Assembly: GCA_028753945.1 (NCBI GenBank)
Contig: JAPNXP010000009.1
Location: 3,720,001-3,784,000, forward strand
DNA: 64,000 bases
DNA from: Hexactinellida sp. DTS-2022
Lineage: Eukaryota; Porifera; Hexactinellida
Direction of reading: 5' to 3'
The notes under the pieces are model-generated. The model was not told where the DNA came from, made no database searches, and was given only the letters and a program-made list of their open reading frames with translations. Each line of letters opens with the position of its first letter. The first letter of the stretch is position 1. The translations under genes and the position numbers were made by a program. Below are positions 3,184-49,492 of the stretch, in pieces.

Positions 3184-5857
3184 TTAAAAGTCATTAAATT
3201 TCCTGCATTTAGAACAAAGTAGAATATTGCCTTTGGAATAGGGTATTGAAGAATAAATAAATAAACACTTTAAGCAGTATACATCTCCACAAAGTAAACA
3301 ATGAGAACGATAACTAGCTTGATTAAATTTCCATTCTTCACAGTCACAACATATCGACTTGGATAGCGGTTGTAGATTTAATGCAGGTAAATACATTTTT
3401 GCTTTAACACGATTACAAGCAGAAACATACTTTTTATCATGTTCAAGTTCAGATATATTAGGACAATCATCACTTCGCAAATATAAATTATTATTATTAT
3501 TTTTAAGATTGGTCTCTTTAATTAGATATGATATATAATCAGCGAGAAATTCGTTTTGCAATTCCATACTGCATACTGACTCTGTAACATTTTCATTTAT
3601 TTGCTTGAAGATACTAAACTGACAATATAGTTGAATCCAAATCTTGAGCCGGCTTTGGTCTATGTGGACTCTTAATAATTCACCACTATAAGATCTAAAG
3701 TGATCAAAGACTGGATTTCTGTAAATTTCTATATGAGAATGCAAGTAACCCCAAAGTGATTGTGTACGGGATGGAAGTGAAAGTTCTATACTTTGTTTTT
3801 CACATTCAGAGATAAAAGTACCATATTTACACCTATAAACTTCTTTAGCAAATAAAATTAGGAGAGATTCCCCAAATTCAAATAGAGTAGGGTACTGCAG
3901 AGTTAGTTGCCATACAGCGTCTAAAAACTGCAGAAAAATAGGTGAATAATCTTTGAAATCCCCTCGGATATGAGCACAGCGCTTAGTGAAAGGATGTCCG
4001 AACGAAATCCAATCTTTCTCAATTAATGTCAAAAAACCATGAATAGTTCGATAAAATGGGTCTATTATTATTTGAGTCAAAGCAGCCACCTGTGACGTTC
4101 GGTCCCATCCATCTGAACAGTGTATTAGTACATTTGCTTGTTCAGTAACTAAAGCTTGGGCACAAAGCAGAGATGCCTCAAGCAGTTTTCTAATAAAAGA
4201 AAGCCATTCACAACTTTCAAGTGATTGTAGTTGTTCATTCTCTTTAAAGTCATATCTTTGAAGTACCCCTTGTAATCCTTTGAAACTCTCACGTATTACA
4301 TGAATGTTAGGCAAATTTCCCCAAATTAATTTAACATTCGAGTAAAACTCTAAATTTTCATAGCCTTTGCCGGCTGCTCTTTGTGCCATTGCATTGATGG
4401 TAGGCCGAAGGTCAACAACATACATATATTCACAGCGACTATTGCAATTTCCTATACACCGAATAAGTTCCTCATCCTGAATATTGCGCTTAGATATGAA
4501 TCTCAAGGGTTGACTGCTACGGCAGAGTGCAGTACCACAGGGTGCATACAAGTAAGTGAGGGTAGGAAGACGATTTCTAGAACGGAAAGCAGCACTTTGG
4601 TATAGTAAATTTCTTTCTATTGCTAGCTTTGGAAATGCAAGGCATCGAGGATAAGTGTCACATAACTCAAAATTCGAATTTTCGAAGGATATTAACCAAT
4701 AGTAATTAGGAAGACCCATACGTGCAAATTCTGAGTGTGCTTCATAAGTATTCCAACCCATTTTCACTGAACGAGTATCTATCTTTGATTGTGGACAATA
4801 ACTAAAAGCAGAGAGTTGCTCGATATTAAATGGGTATACAAAATGACTAAGAGTATCGAAACATGATTGGCAATCATGTTCACTTGCGAACATAAAGAGG
4901 AGTGATCGAAAATCTTTACATTTGATGGAGAGGGGAATACCCTTAGGGGTAAGTTGGAGTCGAGAAAATTCTAAAATAAAGGAATATTCAAACCATAACT
5001 CCTTAAGGTTAAATTACCCCACGGGAATGAAATCTCTTGTATTAATCTGTAATTGTTAGAAATAGATCAAGGTACGATACAAAGCAATAAACAAAAAAGA
5101 AAATGTCTCAATATATTATACTTTTTATTTTTTGTCGGTTTCAATATTTGGCTAATACAAATCTCCCATAGGGCGATTTCAAAAAGTGGTGGTCGATATT
5201 ATAGTGTAATTTGGCAATGCGGCCATCAATGTTTGTTATCAGAATCAATATTGAAAGATTATAAGCGTACGGAGTTGGTAGTCGGTTTACATTTTTGAAT
5301 TATGACTCTGAAATTATTTTTCAAACATTTTATCAAATATCTCATAAAAAACATGACCTTTTTAATGATTTCTTTAGTTCAAAAGGTCGCAACTTTTTTT
5401 ATTTAGGTCAAATCAAAATTCTAAACCAGTCACCTACAGCATATAACGATGATCTATGTGATATATCGCACATAATATGTCTTTAGCTAATAATGATCTT
5501 GAGATCGACACACTTATCAGGTGGAGTCTGAAGAAATCCCCCTATGGGACTTTTGTATTACCATAAAACTGCACGCCCCATAAAATCGAATTTATTCAAA
5601 ATAATTCGATTTCGTTTTCAGTTTCGATATAGCTATAATGTCTTCTATTATATATGTGAAAATTAAACATCTTACTTCAAAACGAAATTTATGTGTTTTT
5701 TTACATGAATCTGCCGTAATTTAACCTTAAGATTTATTGACTCGGAAAAAATAATATGACTGGTTGTAAGGAATAATCTGCCAGCAGTATACTTGATTTT
5801 GTCATATGGAGATGACAGAAGCACGTTATCAACACGTGAAATTTTAATAAACTCCAT
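3184..5857 (-). CDS. Myotubularin-type phosphoinositide 3-phosphatase, MTMR6/7/8 subfamily, two exons
   Basis: Exons 5857-5726 (44 codons) and 5001-3184 join in phase 0 to give 649 residues, close to the size of MTMR6-8. The ATG at 5857 aligns with the start of MTMR6. No ATG lies just upstream, although the frame stays open. Residues 1-110 are the PH-GRAM domain, interrupted by the intron after SINLK. The catalytic domain contains the conserved RAAGKGYEN and HCSDGWDRT (Cys339, Arg345), followed by GF..LIEKDWISFGHPF, so it should be an active PI3P / PI(3,5)P2 3-phosphatase acting on endosomal membranes. The last 55 residues hold eight cysteines spaced as in a FYVE finger (CxxC, RSHCLLCG.VYCLKC, CSKC). 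This tail occurs in invertebrate relatives but not in vertebrate MTMR6-8. The rest of the gene has no introns, which suggests heavy intron loss or a retrocopy. No promoter or polyadenylation signal was identified. Confidence 0.93.
5002..5725 (-). other. Intron of the MTMR gene with transposon-like ends (candidate introner)
   Basis: The 724-nt intron starts GTTAAATTAC and ends GTAATTTAACCTTAAG on the gene strand. CTTAAG-GTTAAATTAC across the donor and GTAATTTAAC-CTTAAG across the acceptor are perfect reverse complements (plus positions 5716-5731 and 5002-5017). CTTAAG therefore flanks both sides as a direct repeat. The insert can be read as 5008-5725 with a 6-bp CTTAAG duplication, or as 5007-5726 with a TTAA duplication. 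Either way splicing restores AATCTTAAGGAG exactly. There is no good pyrimidine tract before the acceptor. A shorter internal inverted pair (around CCCATAGGG, near 5165 and 5541) is also visible. No transposase is encoded. Confidence 0.75.
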
Positions 5858-5990: not shown

Positions 5991-6145
5991 TCAAAATACT
6001 TATATGGAGCTGAGTTACTGGTAACTGAAGTAGGTTTTTATTTATGTCTAAATTTCATTTCTGAGCTTATGGGTCTTTTAGAATTGAAACACCTCCTTAT
6101 ATGGCAGTTCAGTTACCAGTAACTGAGCTCCATATAAGTAATCTG
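5991..6145 (+). mobile_element. 155-bp hAT MITE, copy 1
   Basis: Nearly identical to the 155-bp unit at 40858-41012, in the same orientation. Ends are CAAAATACTTATATGGAGCT and, reversed, CAGATTACTTATATGGAGCT. It is flanked by ATATTTTA and ATATTTCA (8 bp, one mismatch). Internally it carries GAGTTACTGGTAACTGA, itself near-palindromic. The high similarity of the two copies points to recent movement. Confidence 0.8.
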
Positions 6146-6399: not shown

Positions 6400-7498
6400 C
6401 TAGCGAGCTTCGCTTGCTAGGTCGCATCGCGGCAGTACACAACCACACACCAACCGCTTCGCGGTTGGTGTGTGGTTTATACACTTCTCACATTTATAGC
6501 AAAGCTTAATTAAATAGGCCTAAAATAGACGAATTTAACAAATACAGTCGAAATCGGGGTTTTTTGCCCACTTAAATGCACGGAAAAAGAGGCAAAAAAC
6601 CCGTATTTAACATTATACAGTGCTATGAGGTTATGAATAAACAAGAAGCAAGGAGGCAAAATAACCCGATTTCGACTGTATTAGTGATTACGTCATCAAG
6701 CAATAATGAGTAAGCATATTGGCAATCTGGTGTGACCAACGCGTCCGCATCAATTAATGTACATGTTCTATTAAATTTTCAGATTTTTATCTCTTATTAG
6801 AGGGTCCGAAATATGTGTCATTAAAAGTTACTTTTCAGAGTTCTCGAAATGTGAAATGACGTCATAACTTGGCGAGGTGTCAGAAATTTTGAGTGGAATC
6901 CTCAACTAGGTTGGCGGGGGCCAAAGTTTAAACCTATATGCCAAAAATTAGATTTGGAAACCGTCCAGTTTCTTCAATCAACTCGGAACATACAAACAAA
7001 TATATATATACTATATCACATATATATATGTTATGTCGATTTTGTCAAATGTTGATTTTACAAAATCAACATGTCGATTTTACAAAATCAACATGAATCA
7101 ACGGATTTAAAACAAGTGTTCGACTTTGGCTATATTACTCGGATAAGCCTAGGTTTTACTGCATTTTGTTCAGAATTCGCTTCATCCAAGTATATACCAA
7201 CTTGTATGAAGGAATTTTTAACAAAAATGAATTTTTACTAGAATGAAAAAATATTCCAGGGTGATTTTGCAAAATCAACGAATATAATATGTCGATTTTA
7301 TAAAATCAAAAATTTTATTAGTTGATTTTGTAAATCAACATTTTTGCAAATTAAACTTAAGTTTGTATGTTGATTTTACAAAATCGACATTTTGCATGTT
7401 GATTTTGTAAAATCGACTATTTGACAAAATCGAAATAACATATACATATGTATTATGTACATACATACATAGTAAAGGTTTGTGTTCTAATAATATGA
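6400..7498 (-). mobile_element. Non-autonomous Helitron, copy A
   Basis: The 3' end on the minus strand is a short hairpin closing in ...CTAG at 6400, with a longer CCAACCGC/GCGGTTGG palindrome just inside (about 6440-6476). The 5' end at 7498 reads TCATATTATTAGAACACAAA, a diverged form of the TCTATACTATTAAAACACAA end of copies B and C. The body shares GATGCGGACACGTTGGTC and GACGTCATAACTTG blocks with the other copies. It encodes no Rep/helicase. A repeat cluster sits inside at 7030-7440. Confidence 0.75.
7030..7440. repeat. Cluster of GTTGATTTTACAAAATCAAC palindromes
   Basis: At least eight copies or half-copies of a GTTGATTTTgtAAAATCAAC-type palindrome or its TCGATTTTACAAAATC variants lie in both orientations inside Helitron copy A. 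The cluster is absent from copies B and C, so it is either an insertion or a local amplification. Confidence 0.65.
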
Positions 7499-20359: not shown

Positions 20360-21772
20360 ATGGCCTCTGAATTACTTATTGAAAGAATCAAGAGCAACAA
20401 AAATAAAGACAAAGCCTCGCTAATGGGATATATCTATACGTTAAACCGAGTATCTGATGATATATTATACTGGGCATGTGAAAAACGTGGCACATGCAAA
20501 GCTAGAATTCATACGAGAAATGATGTTATAATCAAGCCTGTTCTAGTATCCGAAGTTGAGCAATCCCATACGCACACCCCTTCACAGGATCGTATACAGA
20601 TGTTAAAGGATTATAGAAAAATGAAAGACACAGCATCTAATTCCGAGCAGAGCACTAGAGGTATATTATCCTCTGGTTTAGAAAAAATGCATCCAAGTAC
20701 TGTAAGTAAGCTACCACAATTGGAATCCGTGAAACGAACGATTCGTAATTACAAAAGCATGAGTATCGAAAATTGTGGCAATCCCACTTGTGCAGCTGAA
20801 ATTATCATCCCTGAAAAATATAAAAACTCTCTGAAAGGCGAAACCTTTTTACTGTATGATTCAGGGTTTGGGGATCAGCAAAGGATCATTATATATGGTA
20901 CACTTAAATTTATTGATTTCCTAAGAAACTGTGATAGCTGGTTTTGCGACGGAACATTTAGAGTTGTTCCTGATCTATTTACACAACTGTATACAATCCA
21001 TGCAGAAAAGGATGGTGTAATTTTCCCTTGTATCTATGCACTGCTTCCAAATAAAACTGAAGCTACATATGACAGATTGTTTAAGAAATTATTAGAAATA
21101 GAGCCATCATTAAACCCTTTAAGAATTATGGTCGATTTTGAGAAGGCTGCAATTAATGCCCTGGAGGAGAATTTTATTTCTGTAATTACGGGATGCTTTT
21201 TTCACCTCTCGCAAAATATATTCAGGCACGTTCAAGAACAAGGGTTGGCTGTACGATATCAAGAGGATAACGATTTCGCTATTAGTATTAAGATGCTTGC
21301 CAGTTTGGCTTTTGTTCCAGAGATCGACGTTATAGACAGTTTCATAATTTTAATGCAACAGTTTCCAGAAGAGGCTATAGAAATAGCTAAATATTTTGAA
21401 AAAACATACATAGGAAAAGTATTACCCGATTTGACTAGAAGGGTTCCATTGTTCCCAATAAGAATTTGGAATCTTCACACAAGGGTCAACAGCCGTCTAG
21501 CCAGGACAAATAATAACGTTGAGGGTTGGCACAATGCATTCAGATCTACAGTTGTATATTCGCATCCAAGTTTTTGCAAACTTTCTATGTTTCTTCAAAG
21601 GGAACAGTCTATGCAAGAGGCCGTTCTTGCAAAATGGGAGGGTGGAGAAGTAAAAAAAAGTTCAAAAGCTATTATCGCACGTGATAATCGCATCTTATCC
21701 CTTGTGGCCGATTACGAAAACCGTGAAACATTGGTTTTTCTGAAGGGAATTGCATATAATTTCGAATTTTAA
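20360..21772 (+). CDS. MULE transposase, uninterrupted
   Basis: A 470-residue intronless protein. An N-terminal FLYWCH-like zinc finger (LMGYIYTLNRVSDDILYWACEK...C.ARIHT, about residues 21-55) would bind the element ends. The MULE catalytic core follows, with FCDGTFRVVPDLFTQLYTIH (first Asp about residue 198), IMVDFEKAAINAL (second Asp, D-x-E, about residue 257), CFFHLSQNI (zinc/His motif), and NNNVEGWHNAF (Glu about residue 392). All expected catalytic residues are present and no frameshift is seen. The start at 20360 is the first ATG in frame and leaves about 295 bp of terminal repeat and leader. No RING tail is present, unlike the other MULE family in this window. Confidence 0.92.
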   Translation: MASELLIERIKSNKNKDKASLMGYIYTLNRVSDDILYWACEKRGTCKARIHTRNDVIIKPVLVSEVEQSHTHTPSQDRIQMLKDYRKMKDTASNSEQSTRGILSSGLEKMHPSTVSKLPQLESVKRTIRNYKSMSIENCGNPTCAAEIIIPEKYKNSLKGETFLLYDSGFGDQQRIIIYGTLKFIDFLRNCDSWFCDGTFRVVPDLFTQLYTIHAEKDGVIFPCIYALLPNKTEATYDRLFKKLLEIEPSLNPLRIMVDFEKAAINALEENFISVITGCFFHLSQNIFRHVQEQGLAVRYQEDNDFAISIKMLASLAFVPEIDVIDSFIILMQQFPEEAIEIAKYFEKTYIGKVLPDLTRRVPLFPIRIWNLHTRVNSRLARTNNNVEGWHNAFRSTVVYSHPSFCKLSMFLQREQSMQEAVLAKWEGGEVKKSSKAIIARDNRILSLVADYENRETLVFLKGIAYNFEF

Positions 21773-45963: not shown

Positions 45964-48900
45964 CATAGCCTACTCTATATAAGGCCTAACAGTAACCTTG
46001 AAATTATGGACTAGGGATGCACTAATAGATGGTAATATTTAACCAACCACAATATTTTAACCCATTTTTCTATTTATAATGAACCACATTTTTTTGTTGC
46101 AACTACCCCACTAAATAGTAAGTTTAAATTTCTATTGATTATTAGTCTCTCTTTTTAAGTATTTTGTCATTTTCTTGTCCACTTACTGTTCCTATTCACT
46201 TCTAACTATTAGATTCGTTTATTATGCCCAGCAGTTGCTCAGCCCCCGGATGCAGAAGTAACTACAGCCCAGATGATCGAGTTCCTATATTCAGGATGCC
46301 TGAACATCCACCAGAACTCAGACAAGCTTGGATACGGGCTCTTCACCGAGAGGATATTGATGACCTGAAGGTAGTCAACGTATGCGTGAAGCACTTTCGA
46401 GAAGAAGATGTCGAAGTTTCTCACAAGGTTCCCAATGGAGACGGAACTTTCACTGAAATACCTCGTGCAAAGCCCAAGTTGAGAGACGGCGCAGTTCCCT
46501 GCTTACTTCCTGGTTGTCCATCCTACTACTCTTCAACCACAACAACCAAACGGACTCGCTTGTCGTATGACGCAAAAGAAGAAGAATTGATGATCAGACA
46601 CTACAGCTTAGCTTACTATCTGAGAGCGAGGAGAAACATAAGTACGTCATCAGAAATTTACAGGATCTAAAAGCTAAGTTAATCTTGATTGCATTACCTG
46701 ATAATTGGTTAGTATGGCATCCTGATAATCATAATACTAGGTTCATTCAACCCAATATGGTTGATAGGACTGTTTCTGTCGATTTATATCTGGAAGTAAA
46801 TAATTTTTTATCTGTATCCGCCTGGTTCCATGGACAAATTATTCCCCTTTCGGTAAATTCAATTAATGATATTCGACAAATTGAATCTATACTGCATGAA
46901 ATCTCCTTAAAATCTGTCTCTGATTCTAGTTGTAACTCACATTCATACAATATTCCTCTTGCCAAAAAACATATAAATAATGTTATTGATGATTTAGCGC
47001 GTATCGACGGACCTACATACAATTCTTCAGATTTAGCTAAGCTTCAATTTATCCTCTGTCAATTAGATAATACATTTATTCCGAAAAACAGGCGAATATA
47101 CAATATAATAACACAAATTATGTCCATTAAGACTCATCTCATTTCTCCAGCTTGTTATATCTATCTTCAGGGTTTAGAATGTATTACTCTACCACATGTC
47201 CATACATTAGATAAGTTGTATTCTTCCTTCGGTCTTGAAAATGATTTTTGCACTTATCTCACCCTGGCTACATCTTGCTTTAGTTCCGAGGAAAAAAAAT
47301 GTAATCATTCAAATGGATGAAATCCATGTTAAATCTGATATTGCTTATAAAGGCGGGAAAATATTTGCACCAAATTTGAACCCTGAGAATCCGACGAAAA
47401 CTGTATTCGCGATTATGGTGTCTAGTTTGCATAGGAAATGGTCTTGCATTACCCGTTTGTTACCATGTGCATCTATCTCAGCTAAAAAAATCTTTCCCAC
47501 TATCAAATCTTGTATAATCGATATTGAGCATTGTGGTTTAAAGGTCCAAATGATTTCTACCGATAACTACCCATTGAATGTAAACTTGTTAAATTGTTTT
47601 CTCTTAGTGGAAAGCTGGAAACTAGAGTACCCCACCCTTTTGATGAAAATAGACCTCTCTTCCTTACATTTGATTTTGTCCATATATTGAAAAGTATACG
47701 CAATAATTGGTTAAATCAGAAAAATTTTGATAAAACATTTCGTTTTCCAAATTTTAAACATATTGACATTGATAAATGTAGCTACCCCCTCAGTGTCCAT
47801 TCTGCTTCCTTTCAAGATGTACGCCTTCTCTACAATTCTGAACGATACAGTTTAGCAAAACTAGCCCCTCACTTGACTGTAAAAGCTTGTTTTCCATCTA
47901 GTTTAGAAAGGCAAAATGTCAAATTGGTTTTGAAGGTTGTTAGCGAACTTACACTATCTGCTCTTGAAATCCAAAATGAAAGTCGTTGTCCGGAGTATCT
48001 TAATAATACATCTAGTTTCGTAAGTATCCTTCTTACTCTTTGGAAAATATTCAATATCAATACGCCGTTCAAAGGGACCCGTTTAAATGATAGCCTCTCA
48101 AGACCGTTGATCTTAAACGATGAACGATTTTTATTTTTGACACGTATAGTATTTTGGCTAGATGCTTGGCAGGATTTACCTGACAAAACGGGTAAATTGA
48201 GTAAGCAAACGTATACTAGTTGCAGACACGCCTGTACTGCCTTACCACTTATAACTAACCATCTAACTGAGAATTGTGGCTTTTCCTACGTATTATCATC
48301 CTTTTTACAAACTGACCCGTTGGAACACCATTTTGGACTCTACCGTATGATGTCGGGTTCGAATTACCATATTTCTTACCTTCAGATTCTTGAAACTGAG
48401 CGTCGTCTGAAACTTTCTAGTATATTAAACATGTTTGCAGACCAACAAGACGCTTTCCAAACGATTAGGACATTTGTAAAGTCTTTTTCTACCCCCTCTG
48501 ATACATCTAGTGATGATGGAATAGCTGTAATGCCTTTTCTTGATGAAATTGGCGATCTATCATCCATTGAATGCTCTCAACAAATCCTTCAGTCGTTAGC
48601 TTTTATCGCAGGCTATACGGTCCATAAGTTCTTAAAAAGATCTCCGGAATGCCATGTGTGCACTGATACTCTAACTTATGATAAAGAATTTGTTTTTGAT
48701 GTTGAATCACATACTGAGTTTAAGCTCTTACAATTAACAGATCGTGGCGGACTTAAGTATCCGTCCGAGCCTGTGCTTACTTCAGTTATAACTTTATGGA
48801 AGATAATGATTGCAATAGAAAATAATAATCAGCTGTTGACTTTGCTTGTAGACGGTCCCTCTAGAAGGTTATTAGTAGAACTCACCTTGATATACATGGA

Positions 48901-49492
48901 AAATGATGATGATATTGCTATCTGGAAATCAAATTGTGTTAATTGCGATGTGTACAGTTGGAGTATTTTGAGCAAGTTAATCTTTACTGCTGCTAATTGT
49001 TTTCTTGCCAATAAAATTAAAAACTACAACTCCTCTGTGCTTCAAATAGGTATCGATAAACGTAAATTGAAAAAATTCTCATGAATTATTATTTACCATT
49101 ACAGAATATTTATTGTTGTTAGTACTTAATTTCTTTATATTTGTATCTTAGATTTCGCGCTATCAAGTATACATAATTGTCAAGTTTGAGAGAGAGAGAG
49201 ATAGGAGAGAGGAGTTCCAAGACATGTTGTGTTTCGTATATGTGTTGTGTATTACAGTAGTTTATATGTTTGTATTGTGTATGTAGGTTTACTTATTATC
49301 ATTAAAATATATTAATTCCAAATAAATGTATGGGTTTATTCTTCACAGATATACTTGGTTGGGAAATATTTGACTTGATATGCACTTAAGTGCTTTTATG
49401 TTCACTCCCATAAGATTATTCTATTCCTAAAGTCCATCTATTACCGCATCCATGGTACATCTACTGTTAGGCCTTATATAGAGTAGGCTATG
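45964..49492 (+). mobile_element. P-type element P5, near complete
   Basis: The ends 45964-45994 and 49462-49492 are exact inverses of 31 bp (beginning CATAGCCTACTCTATATAAG), the same length as the terminal repeats of Drosophila P. Flanks share CATATG, which may be a worn 8-bp duplication. The total is 3529 bp with one transposase region. It is the reference copy for the relics at 8820, 15100, 19802, 24433, 38458 and 60987. Confidence 0.92.
46224..49084 (+). pseudogene. P-type (THAP9-like) transposase, nearly intact
   Basis: About 950 residues. Residues 1-90 form a THAP zinc finger (MPSSCSAPGCRSNY, then W.RAL, VCVKHF), the site-specific DNA-binding domain. A coiled region follows (QLSLLSESEEKHKYVIRNLQ, in the second frame), then the RNase-H-like core: IIQMDEIHVKSDI (first Asp), MISTDNYPLNV (second Asp), and the insertion domain with NWLNQKNFDKTF. 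DPLEHHFGLYRMMSGSNYH carries the presumed catalytic Glu. The C-terminus has cysteine pairs (CHVC, CVNC). Three single-base shifts are visible: near 46590, in an A8 run at about 47293, and in TTAAATTG near 47598 (compare TTTAAATAG in P2). The frame 47594-49084 is open for 496 codons. It is probably inactive, but recently so. Confidence 0.88.

Follow-up and report, generated by a model that had tools for sequence, protein, structure and literature searches.

A model of transposon-made introns was reportedly proposed by Huff et al. in 2016. In introners that derive from DNA transposons, insertion generates 4-bp target duplications, and one splice site is carried by the element while the other is co-opted from the target (PMC9860276). 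In Chrysochromulina the 5' site is carried and the 3' site co-opted, as in the element described here, which lies in an MTMR6/7/8-type gene of a glass sponge; the Chrysochromulina family is described as lacking terminal repeats, unlike our element, whereas the introners of Symbiodinium have terminal inverted repeats and the reverse arrangement (PMC9860276). In most families mRNA length is left unchanged, as is predicted for the MTMR insert. The same survey defined an introner family as at least four similar introns, reported gene enrichment in 161 of 175 genomes and, among animals and land plants, placed introners in only two groups, both of them animals (PMC9860276); the words "sponge" and "porifera" are absent from its main text. 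A literature search, with most subscription papers outside its scope, returned no title on a sponge introner or a TTAA introner. The MTMR element differs from the surveyed families in that one host-exon copy was recognised among 54 sites, and that copy is a candidate intron by sequence only.

A second point of reference is the Kolobok superfamily, which is described as having a TTAA target and purine-purine (RR) 5' termini; its Xenopus T2-MITE resembles the MTMR element in its TTAA target, RR 5' termini, short non-autonomous copies and high copy number (PMC6004289). As for the background in glass sponges, short introns and many single-exon genes are reported in Aphrocallistes vastus (PMC10282587), and a compact genome with 1.59 introns per gene in Oopsacas minuta (PMC10280926).

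Structure of the insertion and of its host gene

The window, by which we mean the whole 64,000-nucleotide stretch of DNA analysed, contains on its minus strand (5857-3184) a gene with a Pfam Myotub-related match (E 5e-118), whose top solved-structure match was MTMR6. Its first coding stretch (5726-5857, 44 codons) ends on a base that is the terminal G of a 720-bp, non-autonomous, TTAA-type transposon copy with Kolobok-like termini (5007-5726), and its second (3184-5001, 605 codons plus the stop) encodes the myotubularin phosphatase domain; apart from the insert the gene is intact. A perfect 16-bp inverted repeat, CTTAAGGTTAAATTAC at 5002-5017 and GTAATTTAACCTTAAG at 5716-5731, was found exactly where the initial annotation had placed it. 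The target duplication that had been proposed, CTTAAG, was discarded and replaced by TTAA, since the adjoining base varies from copy to copy, and the outer C and G (5002 and 5731) are host bases. The element begins with GG and ends with CC, and its terminal inverted repeats, perfect and 11 bp long, read GGTTAAATTAC on the left (5007-5017, plus orientation) and, on the plus strand, GTAATTTAACC on the right (5716-5726, minus orientation). No ORF of at least 150 aa was listed within its 720 bp. One TTAA copy lies at 5003-5006, its last A (in gene sense) contributing the first base of the predicted acceptor AG; the other, at 5727-5730, provides the last host bases before the predicted donor and is followed by the element's first G. 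We regard it as almost certain that 5007-5726 is a recent transposon insertion in a coding exon of an MTMR6/7/8-type gene.

Removal of the predicted intron (GTTAAATTAC...AACCTTAAG, GT...AG, 724 nt, phase 0; from 5725 down to 5002 on the minus strand) would join the coding stretches at TTAAG/GAG (a slash marks the junctions here and below), so that 44 and 605 codons form a single 649-codon frame with one stop, at its end, and no coding sequence is lost, as the initial annotation had maintained. The junction peptide, INLK/ELWFEY, agrees with the eight closest proteins (P0001-P0008; protein sequences compared), and the segment from the initial methionine up to the junction spans 44 residues in P0001-P0007, as in the host protein, and 43 in P0008. 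All eight, compared at the protein level, run through the site with no sign of an intron, and an intron at this place in the genes of these relatives appears unlikely. The host protein scored 63% against its nearest named relative, from the glass sponge Oopsacas minuta, and three other relatives are nearer (92, 80 and 77%). By this one gene, the genome would most likely be that of a glass sponge. When P0001 was used as a query against the genome, the MTMR locus was recovered at 90-91%, and the gene is judged to be single-copy because the matches elsewhere (14 matches, 14 candidates) were only 27-51% identical. If the message were left unspliced, the frame would stop after 61 codons and yield a 61-aa stub. 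Further downstream, an ORF that starts at the ATG at 4893 encodes 569 aa and still matches the Pfam phosphatase profile (positions 2-350 of 352).

Predicted splice signals formed by the element ends

Read in gene sense, the ends of the element are G/GTTAAA...AACC/TTAA. The donor GT corresponds to bases 2-3 of the terminal repeat and is thus wholly element-borne, whereas the acceptor AG is composite, its A closing the second TTAA and its G being the next host base. It had been suggested that the GT comes from the terminal repeat and the AG from a second TTAAG copy; the first part stands, and the second needs the amendment that the G belongs to the host and lies outside the duplication, a feature in which the MTMR element differs from the introners as described in PMC9860276. 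Any landing at a sense-strand TTAAG produces exon-TTAAG/GTTAAA...CCTTAAG/exon, in which the element's first G takes the place of the host G in the exon, so the predicted mRNA is unchanged. Since the repeats are perfect inverted copies, this competence holds in both orientations. The TTAAG-dependent geometry results from the sequence itself with no need for adaptation, and such an insertion would be intron-competent by construction. Its likeness to an intron is a weaker coincidence than it appears, because a single G after TTAA suffices.

The quality of the predicted sites was compared with that of three introns (58, 49 and 63 nt; boundaries set by eye) of an MTMR paralogue, and the genome appears to splice short introns. 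Pairing of the element donor, AAG/GTTAAA, with U1 was calculated at -4.1 kcal/mol; the three paralogue donors reach -7.1 to -8.9, and one of them, GTTAGC, is close to the GTTAAA of the element. Among the 101 GTs in MTMR exons, 12 pair with U1 equally well or better, and the predicted intron holds 31 GTs (its donor among them), at least 8 of which surpass the donor, the strongest reaching -6.5. A simple count of consensus positions gives the donor 6 of 9 (6-7 in the paralogue introns), and 17 of the 28 positions ahead of the AAG acceptor are pyrimidines (13-19 in the paralogue introns). In gene orientation the end AG is preceded by competing AGs at 45, 34 and 32 nt, and a branch-point-like TTCAT precedes the predicted AG by 26 nt, the interval being free of other AGs; in the reverse orientation of the element, the last 98 nt contain no AG. 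Splicing of the MTMR insert is possible and predicted to be weak.

Copy number, age and distribution of the family

The genome searched comprised 112.4 Mb in 18 contigs. A search with the whole element gave 647 candidates, the best 40 of which, the ones scored, were all 100% identical over at least 728 bases. The exact TTAA plus terminus occurs 808 times, followed by G in 239 cases, by T in 158 and by A or C in 411, while the reversed-pattern control gave 0-1 per strand; with one mismatch allowed, 980 ends were counted against 119 in the control. The 808 exact ends imply several hundred copies. The possibility that the ends occur nowhere else in the genome, raised initially as a ground for treating the inverted repeat as a coincidence, is contradicted by these counts.

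We read 54 distinct two-ended sites, 49 of which have a length of 720 bp. Compared ungapped, 27 of these 49 copies (the MTMR copy included) have the sequence of the MTMR copy, another 14 show 1-3 differences from it and the remaining 8 show 105-129, a tally skewed by the similarity search towards near-identical copies. Among 13 sites chosen by position only, 10 are 720 bp long; 5 of these 10 match the MTMR copy exactly, and 3 carry 106-112 differences. At nine places (L039, L044, L045, L046, L051, L076, L077, L082 and L087) we read older relatives, which have single exact ends and the same terminal repeat; they are 82-90% identical, one of them being just 251 bp long, and two peptides from their flanks had no Pfam match. 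These older subfamily copies suggest a long-lived lineage with a recent burst. Contig C11, which makes up 13.8% of the genome, carries 21 of the 28 exact ends with TTAAGGA, and contigs C8-C10 have none among the exact ends listed. Contig C11 looks like a transposon-rich chromosome.

Other repeats and transposase-like ORFs were noticed in the window. Just upstream of the MTMR start, at about 6000-6137, an inverted repeat of ~30 nt (GGAGCTGAGTTACTGGTAACTGA...) bounds a short stretch that looks like another short foldback element, and at about 7030-7400, also upstream of the gene, a palindrome resembling TTGATTTTACAAAATCAAC recurs in many short copies. On the plus strand, 20360-21772 is a 470-aa ORF for a MULE transposase that includes a FLYWCH zinc finger, and 47594-49084 is an ORF of 496 aa that resembles a P-element/THAP9-type transposase by eye and has no Pfam match.

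Insertion sites and target preference

Among the 53 other sites no second recognisable host-exon insertion was found by a test, blind to short exons, in which an ORF of at least 100 aa had to cross the joined site (54 sites, 108 orientations). Seven orientations had such an ORF. Besides MTMR, these were L054, with a Sleeping Beauty/IS630-type HTH; L085, with a Tc5 HTH; L033 and L012, which belong to one repeated family also present at L077; and L037 and L018, which had no match. The introner mechanism put forward in the initial annotation is upheld as regards its geometry and putative as regards its biology. The 53 other sites, the general preference of the element for TTAAG, the weak donor and the competing upstream AGs speak against a family-wide introner. 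Of the 92 ORFs in the flanks that reach 90 aa, we also scanned 80. The majority had no Pfam match, and the remainder fell into 12 Pfam families, mainly with one ORF each and most of them transposable-element domains; a YqgB match was taken as spurious. The one clear host domain near copies was Voldacs, of the ICln type, assigned by eye to L044, where it adjoins an older copy.

The 54 sites are biased towards G-flanked and near-identical copies, because the similarity ranking counts flank bases and one listing selected G. In this G-biased sample, a splice-competent G was present in 4 of 7 orientations crossed by an ORF of at least 100 aa and in 33 of 73 with ORFs below 60 aa, which gives no signal. 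At the 13 position-chosen sites (contigs C1 and C2), 10 of the 26 flanking bases are G, and in the three cases where an ORF of at least 100 aa crosses the site the bases are G, T and C.

At the level of the genome, TTAAG makes up 239 of the 808 insertion ends (29.6%, both ends of copies being counted), whereas it represents 371 of 2646 TTAAN (14%) in the window and the flanks of the copies (binomial P about 5e-30). The element prefers G after TTAA about twofold. Given that both ends are counted and that recognisable coding sequence surrounds few of the sites read, this excess looks like a target preference rather than selection for splicing. Of the 16 TTAA sites in the MTMR coding sequence once the insert is removed, 2 are TTAAG, a share that rises to 0.34 when weighted by preference (the A/C split of the weights was taken from 100 listed of the 411 ends, 57 A and 43 C). 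A TTAAG landing would hence occur by chance in 12.5-34% of insertions in this gene, and the intron-like match favours splicing over luck by ~3 to 8-fold.

Superfamily assignment

MITEs of piggyBac share the TTAA target with the MTMR element. The ends of piggyBac elements usually begin with CC, whereas those of the MTMR element begin with GG. Both ends have purine-purine 5' termini next to a TTAA duplication, as given for Kolobok in PMC6004289, a combination that favours Kolobok over piggyBac; the T2 motif, AGGRR, is unlike the terminus GGTTAAATTAC. Of the earlier assignment to a piggyBac- or Kolobok-like element, the TTAA-type, non-autonomous character holds, with piggyBac made less probable by the GG ends. 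We found 57 matches to piggyBac transposase domains in the genome, and none of the 9 on contigs C1-C10 and on C11 up to 4.19 Mb, the part for which the list of exact ends is complete, lies between paired exact ends. No autonomous partner, that is, a transposase with GGTTAAATTAC ends (for Kolobok, one with DDE, THAP and H2CH), was found. A 2.3-kb copy with odd end spacing (L092, C11:2741221-2743560) was considered as an autonomous copy and rejected, since it is a copy of the MTMR element into which another TTAA element has inserted, the longest ORF of the nested part being 87 aa. The nested element occupies about 55-1640 of the copy, has GGCCCCTCTC... ends and sits at a TTAA inside it; lacking a GT at the right place, it would not be intron-competent in the same manner. 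For THAP domains the genome gave 1052 candidates, the best 150 of which were scored, all above the cut-off, a load that is very large for a 112-Mb genome.

Discussion

Our best explanation starts from a Kolobok-like non-autonomous transposon that jumped very recently into a TTAA of the single-copy MTMR6/7/8 gene, a step that we regard as almost certain. By landing at a TTAAG, it obtained a GT from its own terminal repeat, an A from the TTAA and a G from the host exon, so that removal restores the original sequence in phase 0. The spliceosome would then remove the insert at least in part, making it a newborn, weakly spliced intron, and the insert would be tolerated because the MTMR gene still works in part. 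Taken as a whole, we consider this account plausible, if somewhat short of probable, and splicing to a useful degree, taken by itself, is possible and a little doubtful. What speaks for this account is that the insert lies in a single-copy, otherwise intact gene, whereas the unspliced product is a 61-aa stub; the perfect terminal repeats and TTAA duplication of a copy family, the restored 649-codon frame, the short introns of the paralogue and the TTCAT ahead of the predicted AG point the same way. Against it stand the weak donor, the competing AGs, the chance of a TTAAG landing and the lack of a second recognisable host-exon insertion among the 53 other sites read.

The same stub enters the argument for a disruptive recent insertion, according to which MTMR is broken on the sequenced haplotype, useful splicing is absent and the GT/AG match is luck. 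The weakness of the donor and the competing AGs agree with disruption, as do the 12.5-34% chance of a TTAAG landing within MTMR and the presence of TTAAG at 239 of 808 ends genome-wide. In addition, 26 of the 48 other 720-bp copies are identical (in a sample partly chosen by similarity), so that neither decay nor selection has had long to act; in so young a copy an intact frame does not prove tolerance. Against disruption, MTMR is single-copy and otherwise intact, and of the 16 coding TTAA only 2 are TTAAG, one of which took the insertion. We give this alternative about the same probability as the newborn-intron account, somewhat short of an even chance.

An improbable alternative is that the gene is rescued by transcription, or by spliced-leader trans-splicing, starting within or after the element, with a shortened protein of 569 aa made from the ATG at 4893. 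The retention of the Pfam phosphatase match by this ORF, the several AGs held by the element and the trans-spliced leader reported in Aphrocallistes vastus (PMC10282587) are all consistent with such a rescue. The shortened protein would, however, lose the N-terminal stretch common to P0001-P0008. We take this stretch to be part of the PH-GRAM domain. Finally, it is highly improbable that the insert is an ordinary intron of long standing with a fortuitous likeness to a transposon, or a product of misassembly: no point in support was found, there are hundreds of copies with identical ends, the arrangement of element and flanks is that of a clean TTAA insertion, and proteins P0001-P0008 are continuous through the site (P0008 being one residue shorter upstream), on which grounds an old conserved intron was rejected.

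Returning to the newborn, weakly spliced intron, a broader proposal would be that an active glass-sponge Kolobok-like MITE becomes a spliceable intron at any sense TTAAG and in either orientation, that its twofold preference leads to frequent intron birth and that the MTMR copy was caught at birth; this we regard as unlikely. Introners are a leading explanation for bursts of intron gain. If the MTMR insert is not spliced, it is a new transposon mutation of the usual kind and cautions that intron-like ends may need no more than one G. If it is spliced, this would be an animal genome with a young TTAA introner whose copies number in the hundreds, many of them near-identical and probably polymorphic, and in which intron birth, splicing efficiency and selection would be directly measurable.
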